A DNA stretch of 64,000 bases, taken from contig JAUNLX010000001.1 in NCBI GenBank assembly GCA_030532035.1, positions 62,001 to 126,000 of the forward strand, read 5' to 3'. Made by a program: the position numbers and the translations under genes. Below the pieces are notes generated by a model that worked only from the letters and a program-made list of their open reading frames with translations, was not told the origin of the DNA and did not search any database. Shown one piece after another: positions 40,101 to 44,873 of this stretch; within the stretch, counting starts at the first letter, position 1, and each line of letters begins with the position of its first letter. This DNA comes from Clostridia bacterium (GTDB lineage: Bacteria; Bacillota; Clostridia; Oscillospirales; Acutalibacteraceae).

Positions 40101-40138
40101 TAAAAAAGAGCACGAATTTTATTTATTCGTGCTCTTTT
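40101..40138. terminator. Bidirectional fba/murD terminator overlapping the murD coding end
   Basis: A 13-base perfect stem AAAAGAGCACGAA/TTCGTGCTCTTTT (40104-40138) with a nine-base loop. The right arm lies inside the last codons of murD (stop at 40123-40125). U-runs are present in both directions. Confidence 0.88.
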
Positions 40139-41403
40139 CCTATTTCAATTACAAAGTTTTTATAAGTATTTCCCTTTTCTTCAAAATCTCTGTATTTGTT
40201 ATAACTGGGTGCTGCTGGAGACATTAAACAAATTTTCCCTTTTTGAGTTACTTCATAAGCTTTTTTGACAATATATTCAAGGTCATCAAAATAAAAAACA
40301 TTTTTTGTTTTTTCCAGTTCTCGCCCGATTTTATTGCCCGTTTCAGGCATACAGAGAAAATTATTTATCTTAGATTTTTTCAAGAATTCTATAAAATCAG
40401 AATAACTGATTTTTCTATCCATACCACCTAAAATTAGTGTATCAACATCTTCTAAAGCTTCAATCGCTGAAATTACTGCTGTAGGTACTGTTGCTATTGA
40501 GTCGTTGTAAAAAGTAATATCTTTAAAAGTGCCTACTTTTTCCATTCTGTGTTCTAAACCCTCATATTCTATCAAAGCTCTCTCAATATACTCATCTTCT
40601 ACATCTAAAAGTTTTGCCACAGATACAGCATAGTCAATATCTTTTTTATTGTGTTCTCCTTTTAAATTTTCATTTAGATTATGAAATTTCTTGTGATTTT
40701 CAGCTTCGATTTTTTGAGATAAAACTGTTGAAAAATCCATATAATATTTTATGTTATTTTTTACAACATAAAAATCTTCTGTTTTTTGATATTTTATAAT
40801 ATTGAATTTGGCATCAACATAGGCATCAAAATCACGATAATGATCCAAATGCTCTTCATATATATTTGTAATTACACTTATATTGGGGGAAGCCTTACAA
40901 AACTCAAGCTGATGAGATGACATCTCAATAACAGAAATAGAATTTTCTTCCAAAACATCTATAAAATCGAGAACTGGTATTCCCATATTTCCCATATAAT
41001 GAACATTTTTATATTTTAAGCTCAATATTTTATATATTAAAGTAGTTGTAGTTGTCTTGCCCTTTGTTCCCGTTACGCCGATTTTTTTTCCTCTGGCAAA
41101 TCTCAAAAACAAATCAGATTGGCAAGAAACTTCTGTCTGAATATCATAATCTATAAAGGCAATTCCAGGACTCTTGATAACTAAATCATAGTCATTTATT
41201 AAGTTTTTAAAATCTGAAGTCTCTATGAATGTATGCTTAGAAAAACTTTCAGTTTTATACAAATCAAGTTTTTCGGAAGCCACTGTCACACTTGCTTTGG
41301 GCAGATTTTTTTCAATATATTTTAATGTAGATTGACCCTCTCTGCCGAATCCACAAATCAAAATTTTCTTGTCCGTTAAATATTTATTTAGTGCTTCTGA
41401 CAT
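40123..41403 (-). CDS. murD: UDP-N-acetylmuramoyl-L-alanine--glutamate ligase (MurD; probably the MurD2 type that adds L-Glu)
   Basis: Mur ligase of 426 residues that adds glutamate to UDP-MurNAc-L-Ala. The N-terminal Rossmann part has ICGFGREGQST, the P-loop is GVTGTKGKTTTT, and the Mur ligase motif is in HLDHYRD. I choose the ATG at 41403, which fits the family's start (short lead, then KKILICGFG); the frame is open further up, inside murL. It overlaps murL by 20 bases. The tight link to an MurL-like epimerase suggests that the ligase uses L-Glu, as shown for MurD2 in Xanthomonas. Sequence alone does not fix the stereochemistry. Confidence 0.88.
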   Translation of the reverse strand: MSEALNKYLTDKKILICGFGREGQSTLKYIEKNLPKASVTVASEKLDLYKTESFSKHTFIETSDFKNLINDYDLVIKSPGIAFIDYDIQTEVSCQSDLFLRFARGKKIGVTGTKGKTTTTTLIYKILSLKYKNVHYMGNMGIPVLDFIDVLEENSISVIEMSSHQLEFCKASPNISVITNIYEEHLDHYRDFDAYVDAKFNIIKYQKTEDFYVVKNNIKYYMDFSTVLSQKIEAENHKKFHNLNENLKGEHNKKDIDYAVSVAKLLDVEDEYIERALIEYEGLEHRMEKVGTFKDITFYNDSIATVPTAVISAIEALEDVDTLILGGMDRKISYSDFIEFLKKSKINNFLCMPETGNKIGRELEKTKNVFYFDDLEYIVKKAYEVTQKGKICLMSPAAPSYNKYRDFEEKGNTYKNFVIEIGKEHE

Positions 41404-42760
41404 ATTGTTTAAATTCCTCAATTGCATATTTAAATTTATTTGGAACAGAGTGCTCATAGTTAAAATATCTCAAAAGCTTATCGAAATTTTCAGTGTCAAT
41501 CTCTGTTTTTGAATTAAAATATTCAAGCAGTTGTGGCAAAGCTCGTCCCTCAGACAAATATTTTTCAACCGTCTTTGAAAGCGCAGCTTTAATTTCCGCT
41601 CTCGTGCCTACACACTCAAAGGGCTTGACTTGTGTAAATCCCACAAGACCGTCGAAAATTGAAATTAGCTCTTTATTGTCAAGTAAGTTTTCTCCAAAAA
41701 TTTTAATCAATTTTTCTTCTTCCATAAATGCCGACAACATCGAATATACAAAAAGACATTTAGCGCATTTTCCGCACCAACGATTTTCTTTAGAGCCAAC
41801 ATTACAGCTGACAAAAATATTGTGAAATTCAGGTAAAGATGCAAAATATTTTGCTATCTGCAATTCATTAAATGGCCTGAGTAAGCTAAAATATTTTATA
41901 TCTGGAATAAGGTAGGATTTTATATATTCACTTATATTTTTTTCAAATTCAAAAGATTTAGAATATTGATGATTTATATCTAATCCCTCAATATTGCTCT
42001 CATTTGCACTCGCTTCATTGGACAGCACTAAATAATTGGCCCCCATTAAATATGCCGTATAAAGCCCCGTAAATGCAACAATTGCAGAAAAGGGCGTGTG
42101 TCCGTTTAAAAATCCCTTTTTATTCAACTCAAGTAAATTGGGATCTATTGTTCTATTGATATTAATTATCTTATCTTTTGTATATCCAGAAACTAAAACA
42201 GCGTCCTCTCTCGCTTTTTGATGATTGACTGTAATAAAATAATTTTCATCTCTATATTTTGCAGACAAAGATATTGTTACATCTGAGTCTTTGCCGCCGC
42301 CCACGGGAATAATATTGAGATTTCTTGATATAAATTTATCGCGAGTTTCCTCTTCTCTATTTCCCTCACATCTGATTTGCAAGAATTTTCTAAAAGGAAT
42401 TTCAATATTATTTATGTAAAAAAATTCTCCTAAGCCTTTATAATAAAGCTTTTTGAAAAATTGTATCTCCTCAACACTTAATTCTCCACATCTAACCGTC
42501 ATCAGTTGAGGACAGACAGATTTAAAATAGCTGACTGCTTCAACCATTCCCAGAGATAAAATTATCTTTCGTGCGAGCGGACCGTCAAAAGAATTTACAA
42601 TCAAATCATCGGAAATTTCAAAAATAAGTTCTGGCGTAAATTTGCACAATCCTGGAATTTCAAAATCATATACGACCTTTATTCCGCCTGTAATTTTACA
42701 GACAGAAAAATCATTGAAAATAAATTCTTTGTATTTTGCTCGAATATCTTCAAATGTCAT
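41384..42760 (-). CDS. murL: MurL-like UDP-MurNAc-L-Ala-L-Glu epimerase
   Basis: A 458-residue protein that I recognise as MurL, the ATP-dependent epimerase that converts the terminal L-Glu of UDP-MurNAc-L-Ala-L-Glu to D-Glu. A PP-loop-like motif VGGGKDSDV sits at 153-161. A second conserved block is LLRPFNELQIAKYF (about 293-306), then FVSCN and the cysteine motif WCGKCAKC (328-335). It follows malQ with a four-base overlap and runs 20 bases into murD. A neighbouring murD is just what the MurD2/MurL pathway predicts. The alternative is another PP-loop enzyme of unknown role, but the genomic pairing argues against it. Confidence 0.8.
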   Translation of the reverse strand: MTFEDIRAKYKEFIFNDFSVCKITGGIKVVYDFEIPGLCKFTPELIFEISDDLIVNSFDGPLARKIILSLGMVEAVSYFKSVCPQLMTVRCGELSVEEIQFFKKLYYKGLGEFFYINNIEIPFRKFLQIRCEGNREEETRDKFISRNLNIIPVGGGKDSDVTISLSAKYRDENYFITVNHQKAREDAVLVSGYTKDKIININRTIDPNLLELNKKGFLNGHTPFSAIVAFTGLYTAYLMGANYLVLSNEASANESNIEGLDINHQYSKSFEFEKNISEYIKSYLIPDIKYFSLLRPFNELQIAKYFASLPEFHNIFVSCNVGSKENRWCGKCAKCLFVYSMLSAFMEEEKLIKIFGENLLDNKELISIFDGLVGFTQVKPFECVGTRAEIKAALSKTVEKYLSEGRALPQLLEYFNSKTEIDTENFDKLLRYFNYEHSVPNKFKYAIEEFKQYVRSTK

Positions 42761-44172
42761 ATTAACCTCTTATGCTCTTTACAAAGATTAAAAATTTTAT
42801 TTGACAAATTATCATTAAAAGCGCTTTTTTTGTACTTCGTCTCCCAGTTATTTGCTGTTGTCCCAGGCACATTTATTCTGCCCTCTTCTCCAAGCAACAG
42901 ATAATCTGACATGGGTGCGATAAATAATTTAGATTTTGCACTCATTGCGTAAGAAATAAAGCTATATACATCATTTTCATAAAAAAATTCTCGGAGCTTT
43001 TCCTGTAAAAACCAATGTTCTTTTTTTGATTCTAAAAATGATTTTGCAGTTGGATTATCATGTGTACCCGTATAATAACAATTTTTTACATTTTGATTTT
43101 CAGGCAAAGAACTTTCATCAATATTATCTCCAAAAGCAAATTGCAAAACTGACATAGAATAAAATTCTGAATAATTCATCAAATCTCGAACTTCATCTGT
43201 TATATATCCCAAATTTTCAGCTATGATTCTTTCAGTGCCAAAAGAAGATTTTATAAGATCAATAAATTTGCGACCAGGTCCTTTGCGCCACATTCCAAAT
43301 GAAGCGTCATTTGAATCATAATCTATCTCATAATATGATTCAAAACCTCTAAAATGATCTAATCTGACAATATCATAACATTTAAATGCAAACTCAAATT
43401 TATCGTAAATAAATTTGAAGTTTCCTTTTTCTATTTTTTCAAAATCATAGACAGGATTACCCCAAAGTTGACCTTTATCGGAAAATGCGTCTGGTGGAAC
43501 TCCTGCCACTTTATATAAGCTTCCATTTTCATTTAATTTGAATTTATCTGAGTGAAAATAAACTCTGTGAGAATCATATGCTTCAAAAAAAGGAATATCT
43601 CCATAGAGCAGTATATTTTTTTCATTTGCATATTTTTTAATTTTTGAAAATTGACTAAAGAAAAGATACTCAATAAAAATTATCTCTTTTTGCAAAGTTT
43701 CAGAAAAATATCTTTTGTTTTCCGCAATCAAAGAAAGGTATTTTGAATATTCAAAAATCCAATTTTGATTTTCTTCTATGAAATCAAAATATTCTTTTGT
43801 TTTCTTTTTAAGTCCTCTTTTGGCAGCTAAATATAGTAAATTATTTTTTTCGTTGATTAAATTTTTATAATCAATTTTTTGAATATCTTCTCTTTTTAAG
43901 GTTTCAATTTCAGTTTCTTTCAACAATTCCCGCTCAACCAAATCTTCAAGACTTATAAGAAGAGGATTGCCAGCAAAAGGAGACATGGTCTTATATGGAG
44001 AATTAGCCTCCTTATACAGAGTTGGTCCTATCGGCAAAATTTGCCAAACAGTTTGACCAGATTCTGAAAGAAAATCTATAAAATCTATTGCCTCTTTTCC
44101 TAAACTACCTATGGAATAATCTGAAGGTAGAGAAAAAACGGGCATAAGAATACCCGATCTTTTTTCACTCAT
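42757..44172 (-). CDS. malQ: 4-alpha-glucanotransferase (amylomaltase)
   Basis: GH77 enzyme of 471 residues that transfers maltodextrin segments. It begins with RSGILMPVFSLPSDYSIGSLG, has the GVPPDAFSDKGQLWGNPVYDF motif, the nucleophile region VRLDHFRGF, the acid/base in IIAENLG and GTHDNPTAKSFL. It is coupled by four-base overlaps to the unknown membrane-anchored protein upstream and to murL downstream. Glycogen or maltodextrin genes are absent nearby, so its presence in a proline/peptidoglycan operon is odd. Confidence 0.92.
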   Translation of the reverse strand: MSEKRSGILMPVFSLPSDYSIGSLGKEAIDFIDFLSESGQTVWQILPIGPTLYKEANSPYKTMSPFAGNPLLISLEDLVERELLKETEIETLKREDIQKIDYKNLINEKNNLLYLAAKRGLKKKTKEYFDFIEENQNWIFEYSKYLSLIAENKRYFSETLQKEIIFIEYLFFSQFSKIKKYANEKNILLYGDIPFFEAYDSHRVYFHSDKFKLNENGSLYKVAGVPPDAFSDKGQLWGNPVYDFEKIEKGNFKFIYDKFEFAFKCYDIVRLDHFRGFESYYEIDYDSNDASFGMWRKGPGRKFIDLIKSSFGTERIIAENLGYITDEVRDLMNYSEFYSMSVLQFAFGDNIDESSLPENQNVKNCYYTGTHDNPTAKSFLESKKEHWFLQEKLREFFYENDVYSFISYAMSAKSKLFIAPMSDYLLLGEEGRINVPGTTANNWETKYKKSAFNDNLSNKIFNLCKEHKRLI

Positions 44173-44873
44173 TTTTTCTTTTCTTCAACAATGCTGTCAC
44201 TGAAAGAGGGATCTGTATCCTGCAGAGAACTTATATAAAAATCAGAATCTGATTTAGGAGATTTTCTCAAAGTGATTTTAACATACTTACTCGGTGGTGG
44301 TTCTATAAAATTACCATTTTCATCCATTATAGTGTCACGACCAGAGATATATGCAACTGTGAGAATAACTGAGTTTTTCTTTTTGTCTACATCAATTATT
44401 TTAGGCGTATATATGGGGTCAACACCAGTAATGGGAATTTTATATGCTTTTGCAGTTGAGTCATATTCAAATTCATATGAACCAGGTGCAATTGTTTGAT
44501 GTTTAGGCTTTACACTGTCTCCATATAAAGATACAAAAGTCTTTTCAACATCTGTTGCAGGCAAGACAATTCTATTGTCAACAATTTTATATTTGCCTGT
44601 ATCTATTCCCTCAATTAAAATCGACCAAATTGATGAGTCTATAAGCTGTTGCATATCAGCTTTGGAAACATCGTCGAAAGTCGAAGGATCATTCATAACT
44701 AATGGAAGAATCATTTTTTCATAATTTTTTTTCGTAATATCAGATTTGTCGGTCGCTTTTATTATCCCTTTTGTGATGAAAAAGAGTGAGAAAATAATTC
44801 CGACTATAGCCATAATAAAAACAAAAATTCCAAGAGGATAAGCCCATTTTTTTCTTAAATTTTTATCTTTCAT
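44169..44873 (-). CDS. Single-span membrane protein of unknown function
   Basis: I do not recognise this family. The 234-residue protein has a basic N terminus (KDKNLRKKW), one hydrophobic segment (about 11-36) and a 195-residue domain predicted to lie outside the cell. That domain is rich in beta-like strands and contains repeated IVLPATDVEKTF and SYEFEYDS-type strands. It ends in a lysine-rich tail. It starts two bases after the proA stop and overlaps malQ by four bases, so it is a fixed part of the proBA-malQ-murL-murD operon. Confidence 0.75.
   Translation of the reverse strand: MKDKNLRKKWAYPLGIFVFIMAIVGIIFSLFFITKGIIKATDKSDITKKNYEKMILPLVMNDPSTFDDVSKADMQQLIDSSIWSILIEGIDTGKYKIVDNRIVLPATDVEKTFVSLYGDSVKPKHQTIAPGSYEFEYDSTAKAYKIPITGVDPIYTPKIIDVDKKKNSVILTVAYISGRDTIMDENGNFIEPPPSKYVKITLRKSPKSDSDFYISSLQDTDPSFSDSIVEEKKK

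Follow-up and report, generated by a model that had tools for sequence, protein, structure and literature searches.

A candidate MurL–MurD2 gene pair for D-glutamate formation in a low-GC Clostridia bacterium and its relatives

D-glutamate is close to universal in peptidoglycan, and the glutamate racemase MurI is a drug target. Can a Clostridia bacterium arrive at the same residue by another route? A 64,000-nt stretch of its contig JAUNLX010000001.1 (GCA_030532035.1, positions 62,001–126,000; hereafter the window) raises this question, as a murD gene overlaps there with the gene of a 458-amino-acid (aa) protein that the initial annotation took for MurL, proposing that the pair replaces MurI and ordinary MurD. 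In such a route, a MurD2-type ligase would attach L-glutamate first and MurL would then flip it in place, giving D-glutamate. Both activities have been shown biochemically for the Xanthomonas, Micromonospora and Salinispora enzymes (PMC8788868). Homology, specificity residues, gene linkage and a missing racemase all support the proposal, and we consider it very probable that the pair is a MurL/MurD2 module standing in for MurI and ordinary MurD. The case for this route is carried by a residue pair in MurD and by the mutual exclusion of MurL and MurI among related genomes; the L-glutamate ligase and epimerase activities of these particular proteins are what we infer from it.

The residue pair is known from the characterized enzymes: E197 and R358 of Xanthomonas oryzae MurD2 are the counterparts of Escherichia coli MurD residues D182 and K348, and changing both flips the specificity from L- to D-glutamate (PMC8788868). 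The window MurD, which matches TIGR01087, was aligned to E. coli MurD and carries E202 and R348 at these stereospecificity positions, while keeping all catalytic residues checked (K115, N138, E157, H183, K198, R302 and D317, E. coli numbering). Judged by this E/R combination, it would be a MurD2-type L-glutamate ligase. Among MurDs linked to MurL, 71 of 77 are E/R and the remaining six are D/R (named loci L025, L036, L037, L039, L056 and L068; a further MurL-linked D/R protein is at L139:4323-5654); all nine from the window's family are E/R. In genomes of the same family without MurL, 30 MurDs were read, 29 of them at both positions, yielding 25 N/K and 4 D/K proteins, with no E and no R. Family genomes with an N/K or D/K MurD carry MurI over the cut-off, except for one (G227) in which the MurI match is split in two. 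In a tree, the MurL-linked MurDs form one clade with three unlinked E/R MurDs (support 100), apart from the family's canonical MurDs. Two other candidate markers were discarded: position 319, a Lys in E. coli and an Ile in the window MurD, is also Ile in most MurDs of MurI-carrying relatives, and Arg348 taken alone occurs in streptococcal MurD too.

MurL and MurI also exclude each other among genomes. Of the 197 sampled from the order, 18 (from eight family codes) have MurL, 159 have a cut-off-passing MurI and none has both; for the 60 sampled from the family, the corresponding counts are 13, 40 and none (Fisher p=2e-15 and 2e-8, in tests that ignore shared ancestry). Weak matches to the MurI model do occur in six MurL genomes (G153, G175, G204, G207, G235 and G236), all well under the cut-off. 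MurL and MurI states are both represented within family codes f1, f2, f10, f17, f18 and f26, which indicates that the route was repeatedly switched or differentially lost.

The bacterium's own genome (1.13 Mb, 20 contigs, 96.3% complete, 33.5% guanine plus cytosine, GC) follows this pattern. No protein in it matches the Asp/Glu racemase family PF01177, which is matched in 10 of 14 control genomes. Its single Aminotran_4 protein (364 aa) looks like a branched-chain aminotransferase and reaches 44 bits with TIGR01121, the model for D-amino-acid aminotransferase (cut-off 277). There is one MurD only, so that the search for murI and a second murD suggested by the initial annotation returned neither, at 96.3% completeness. 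MurC over the cut-off is likewise missing from this assembly. It passes the cut-off in 34 of 40 relatives, for which reason we rejected its loss as a trait of the lineage; the gap is most likely one of assembly. A single absence therefore proves little, and the statement that murI is lacking rests on a completeness of 96% together with the exclusion pattern in relatives. As a separate observation on stem-peptide synthesis, the genome's MurE (L002:1198-2649), read by eye, has ITDDDSGNES where the MurE type specific for meso-diaminopimelate (meso-DAP) has DNPR, and the third stem-peptide residue of this bacterium may be something other than meso-DAP.

The partner protein is recognizable as a MurL homologue. 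NF041275, the NCBIfam equivalog for MurL of Xanthomonadales, matches it with 269 bits (E=4e-80), residues 65–447 aligning to positions 59–443 of the 447 in the model. This match is far beyond chance. The homology covers most of the length of MurL and places the protein in the MurL family in the wider sense, and all 47 aligned homologues match the same model at E≤0.001. Other PP-loop families were considered and set aside: Pfam yields only a weak match to DUF6395 (E=0.025), QueC reaches at best E=0.014 and does so in three of the 47 homologues, and a PDB sequence search with the 458-aa protein matches TtuA in its PP-loop only. The initial annotation's identification of MurL is thus borne out by the profile, with no other PP-loop family matching at significance. 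In a tree of MurL, the window protein falls among the MurLs of its own family.

MurL and MurD also travel together. Scanning named prokaryote genomes for MurL turned up 80 loci, and in 77 of these murL immediately precedes murD in the same orientation. In two Bacteroidales the two proteins are fused in a single open reading frame (L070:3075-5735 and L084:3965-6697; 886 and 910 aa), and in a genome of the order (G014, contig C150) MurL and Mur-ligase matches lie within one 911-aa frame. MurL is also found in long frames of 857 and 872 aa in G096 and G128, which may be fusions. In G228, MurL and MurD are on different contigs; the pair of the family member G240 is near-identical to that of L024. 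The 80 loci come from Clostridia/Oscillospiraceae, Bacilli, Erysipelotrichaceae, Bacteroidales and one Gottesmanbacteria genome of the candidate phyla radiation (CPR). The pair in a Firmicute that the initial annotation had singled out is therefore upheld, although not as a lone oddity, being spread through Clostridia, Bacilli and Bacteroidales and present in one CPR genome.

The predicted structure suggests how MurL might work. Its AlphaFold model is of high confidence (predicted local distance difference test 92.8, predicted template modelling score 0.92), and, among PDB structures, Foldseek finds QatC (9y01_B, E=1.4e-4), Cap9 and Bacillus subtilis QueC (3bl5_A, template modelling score 0.63 on the target), with phage QueC models among the matches in BFVD. 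With both a PP-loop motif and a QueC-like fold, MurL resembles a QueC-type PP-loop adenosine triphosphate (ATP) pyrophosphatase in its model. Four invariant cysteines (C319, C329, C332 and C335), spaced much as in QueC, may form a zinc site as they do there. PP-loop enzymes convert ATP to adenosine monophosphate (AMP) and pyrophosphate by adenylating the substrate, and QueC uses such carboxylate-activating chemistry with release of AMP. MurL epimerization has been reported to turn ATP into AMP, and the authors, who saw no known domain in MurL, proposed adenylation of the alpha-carboxylate (PMC8788868, PMC5808125). A QueC-type fold fits both the AMP formation and this proposal; an adenylation step and the acid–base residues of MurL would be predicted on this basis.

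Several observations weigh against a MurL/MurD2 route in this bacterium, beside the shared ancestry that the Fisher tests ignore. Since MurC, too, was not recovered in this assembly, the absence of murI is not absolute. The score of the 458-aa protein is under the curated NF041275 naming cut-off of 700 bits, making it a homologue of the equivalog and not a member. Two MurL genomes contain a protein like D-amino-acid aminotransferase, under the cut-off. Residues and MurL also track imperfectly: besides the six D/R proteins among the 77, the MurD of G207 has D at the first specificity position, and three E/R MurD2-type ligases are unlinked to MurL (L133:3733-5037 in G214, L134:4652-5956 in G247 and L135:1186-2532 in G250; genomes 99%, 97% and 82% complete). 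These three genomes have no MurL beside the gene and no MurL, MurI or D-amino-acid aminotransferase over the cut-off; for MurL, the profile search was empty and had no positive control genome, while single-sequence searches were run alongside positives. Should this pattern be real and no assembly gap, which we think unlikely, either a further unrecognized enzyme must set the D-configuration of glutamate there or the cell wall keeps L-glutamate.

Two other explanations were weighed. MurD might be an ordinary D-glutamate ligase next to a MurL-like protein that performs some other QueC-like modification of a nucleotide or peptide, D-glutamate being supplied by an undetected racemase or by the environment. 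The QueC-like fold class does have varied substrates, the assembly is 96% complete with MurC missing as well, and a host-associated cell could import D-glutamate; but the exclusion of MurI by MurL is strict over eight families of the order, MurD has the E/R specificity residues, and its pairing with MurL is near-constant and extends to fusions, so that we hold this to be quite improbable. A leakier arrangement can also be imagined, in which the ligase takes both enantiomers and MurL repairs or edits L-glutamate mis-incorporated by a promiscuous MurD. In its favour are the D/R composition of some MurL-linked MurDs and the streptococcal MurD, which has Arg at the 348 position and slightly accepts L-glutamate (PMC8788868). 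Editing would not predict the loss of MurI seen in MurL carriers, however, and we give this arrangement very little credence.

As a probable MurL/MurD2 module, the pair can be compared with known systems. It resembles XOO_1320/XOO_1319 of X. oryzae (MurD2/MurL; PMC8788868, PMC5808125) in its homologous MurL, its E/R MurD, the adjacency of the genes and a genome without glutamate racemase or D-amino-acid aminotransferase. It differs in its low-GC, Bacillota-type host, in having P417/Y419 in MurD where X. oryzae MurD2 has P433/F435, in lying within a malQ/proBA run of genes, in the fused forms of its relatives and in the distance of its MurL from the Xanthomonadales proteins (well under their naming cut-off). 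With QueC, QatC and Cap9, MurL shares the PP-loop ATP-pyrophosphatase fold and, apparently, a four-cysteine cluster at the matching place; it differs from them in an additional beta-sheet region at its N-terminus and additional helices at its C-terminus, in an identity of only 10–18% (Foldseek) and in its substrate. MurI with canonical MurD has the homology of MurD in common with the pair, whereas the racemase sets chirality before ligation and MurD is N/K or D/K within the same family.

The coordinates of the locus are given in the table. The open reading frames, the three motifs by which MurL had been recognized (VGGGKDSDV, LLRPFNELQIA and WCGKCAKC, all in the 458-aa protein) and the overlap with murD were recovered as initially annotated. 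The longest murD frame starts at 41457; the third in-frame ATG, at 41403 (MSEALNKYL...), is the conserved start and gives the overlap of 20 bases. An overlap of exactly the same length is found in 18 of 77 related pairs. Upstream, murL shares 4 bases (ATGA) with the malQ-like gene of the same gene run, and proB/proA-like genes lie beyond it. Between the proA-like and malQ-like genes, 44172–44873 (−) encodes a 234-aa protein with an N-terminal membrane-like segment and no Pfam match.

Table. Positions of the genes and of key codons within the window.
Feature	Position	Strand	Evidence or remark
murL	41384..42760	−	458 aa; NF041275 match, AlphaFold model, Foldseek matches
murD (MurD2-type, predicted)	40123..41403	−	TIGR01087, 295 bits; E202/R348; MurL-linked MurD clade, support 100
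murL 3' end/murD start overlap	41384..41403	−	20 bases
PP-loop GGGKDS codons	42284..42301	−	MurL residues 154–159; invariant in 47/47 homologues; aligned with TtuA and QueC PP-loops
Four-Cys site codons, C319...C329xxC332xxC335	41756..41806	−	Invariant in 47/47; hhalign places PP-loop and four Cys of MurL on E. coli QueC and its Cys cluster, at a low probability of 8.6%
MurD E202 codon (444-aa numbering)	40852..40854	−	Equivalent to E. coli MurD D182, X. oryzae MurD2 E197
MurD R348 codon	40414..40416	−	Equivalent to E. coli MurD K348, X. oryzae MurD2 R358
malQ-like 4-alpha-glucanotransferase	42757..44172	−	Glyco_hydro_77, E=1e-124; context only

Reviews place MurL in Gamma- and Alphaproteobacteria and Actinobacteria only, listing in addition orthologues of low similarity in a fungus, cyanobacteria and an amoeba (PMC8788868, PMC5808125). 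In the literature searched, MurL/MurD2 was not found for Bacillota, Bacteroidota or CPR, an earlier mention in Feng et al. 2017/2019 being possible. Within that limit, the host range of the pair would be new, while its chemistry was already known. Its assignment as a QueC-like PP-loop protein supplies a testable adenylation site for MurL, an enzyme described in reviews as being without known domains. For the organisms concerned, D-glutamate would come from the other route in 18 of 197 genomes in the order sample and in 13 of 60 in the family sample; inhibitors of MurI should spare such MurL carriers, and inhibitors of MurD2 or MurL should hit them.
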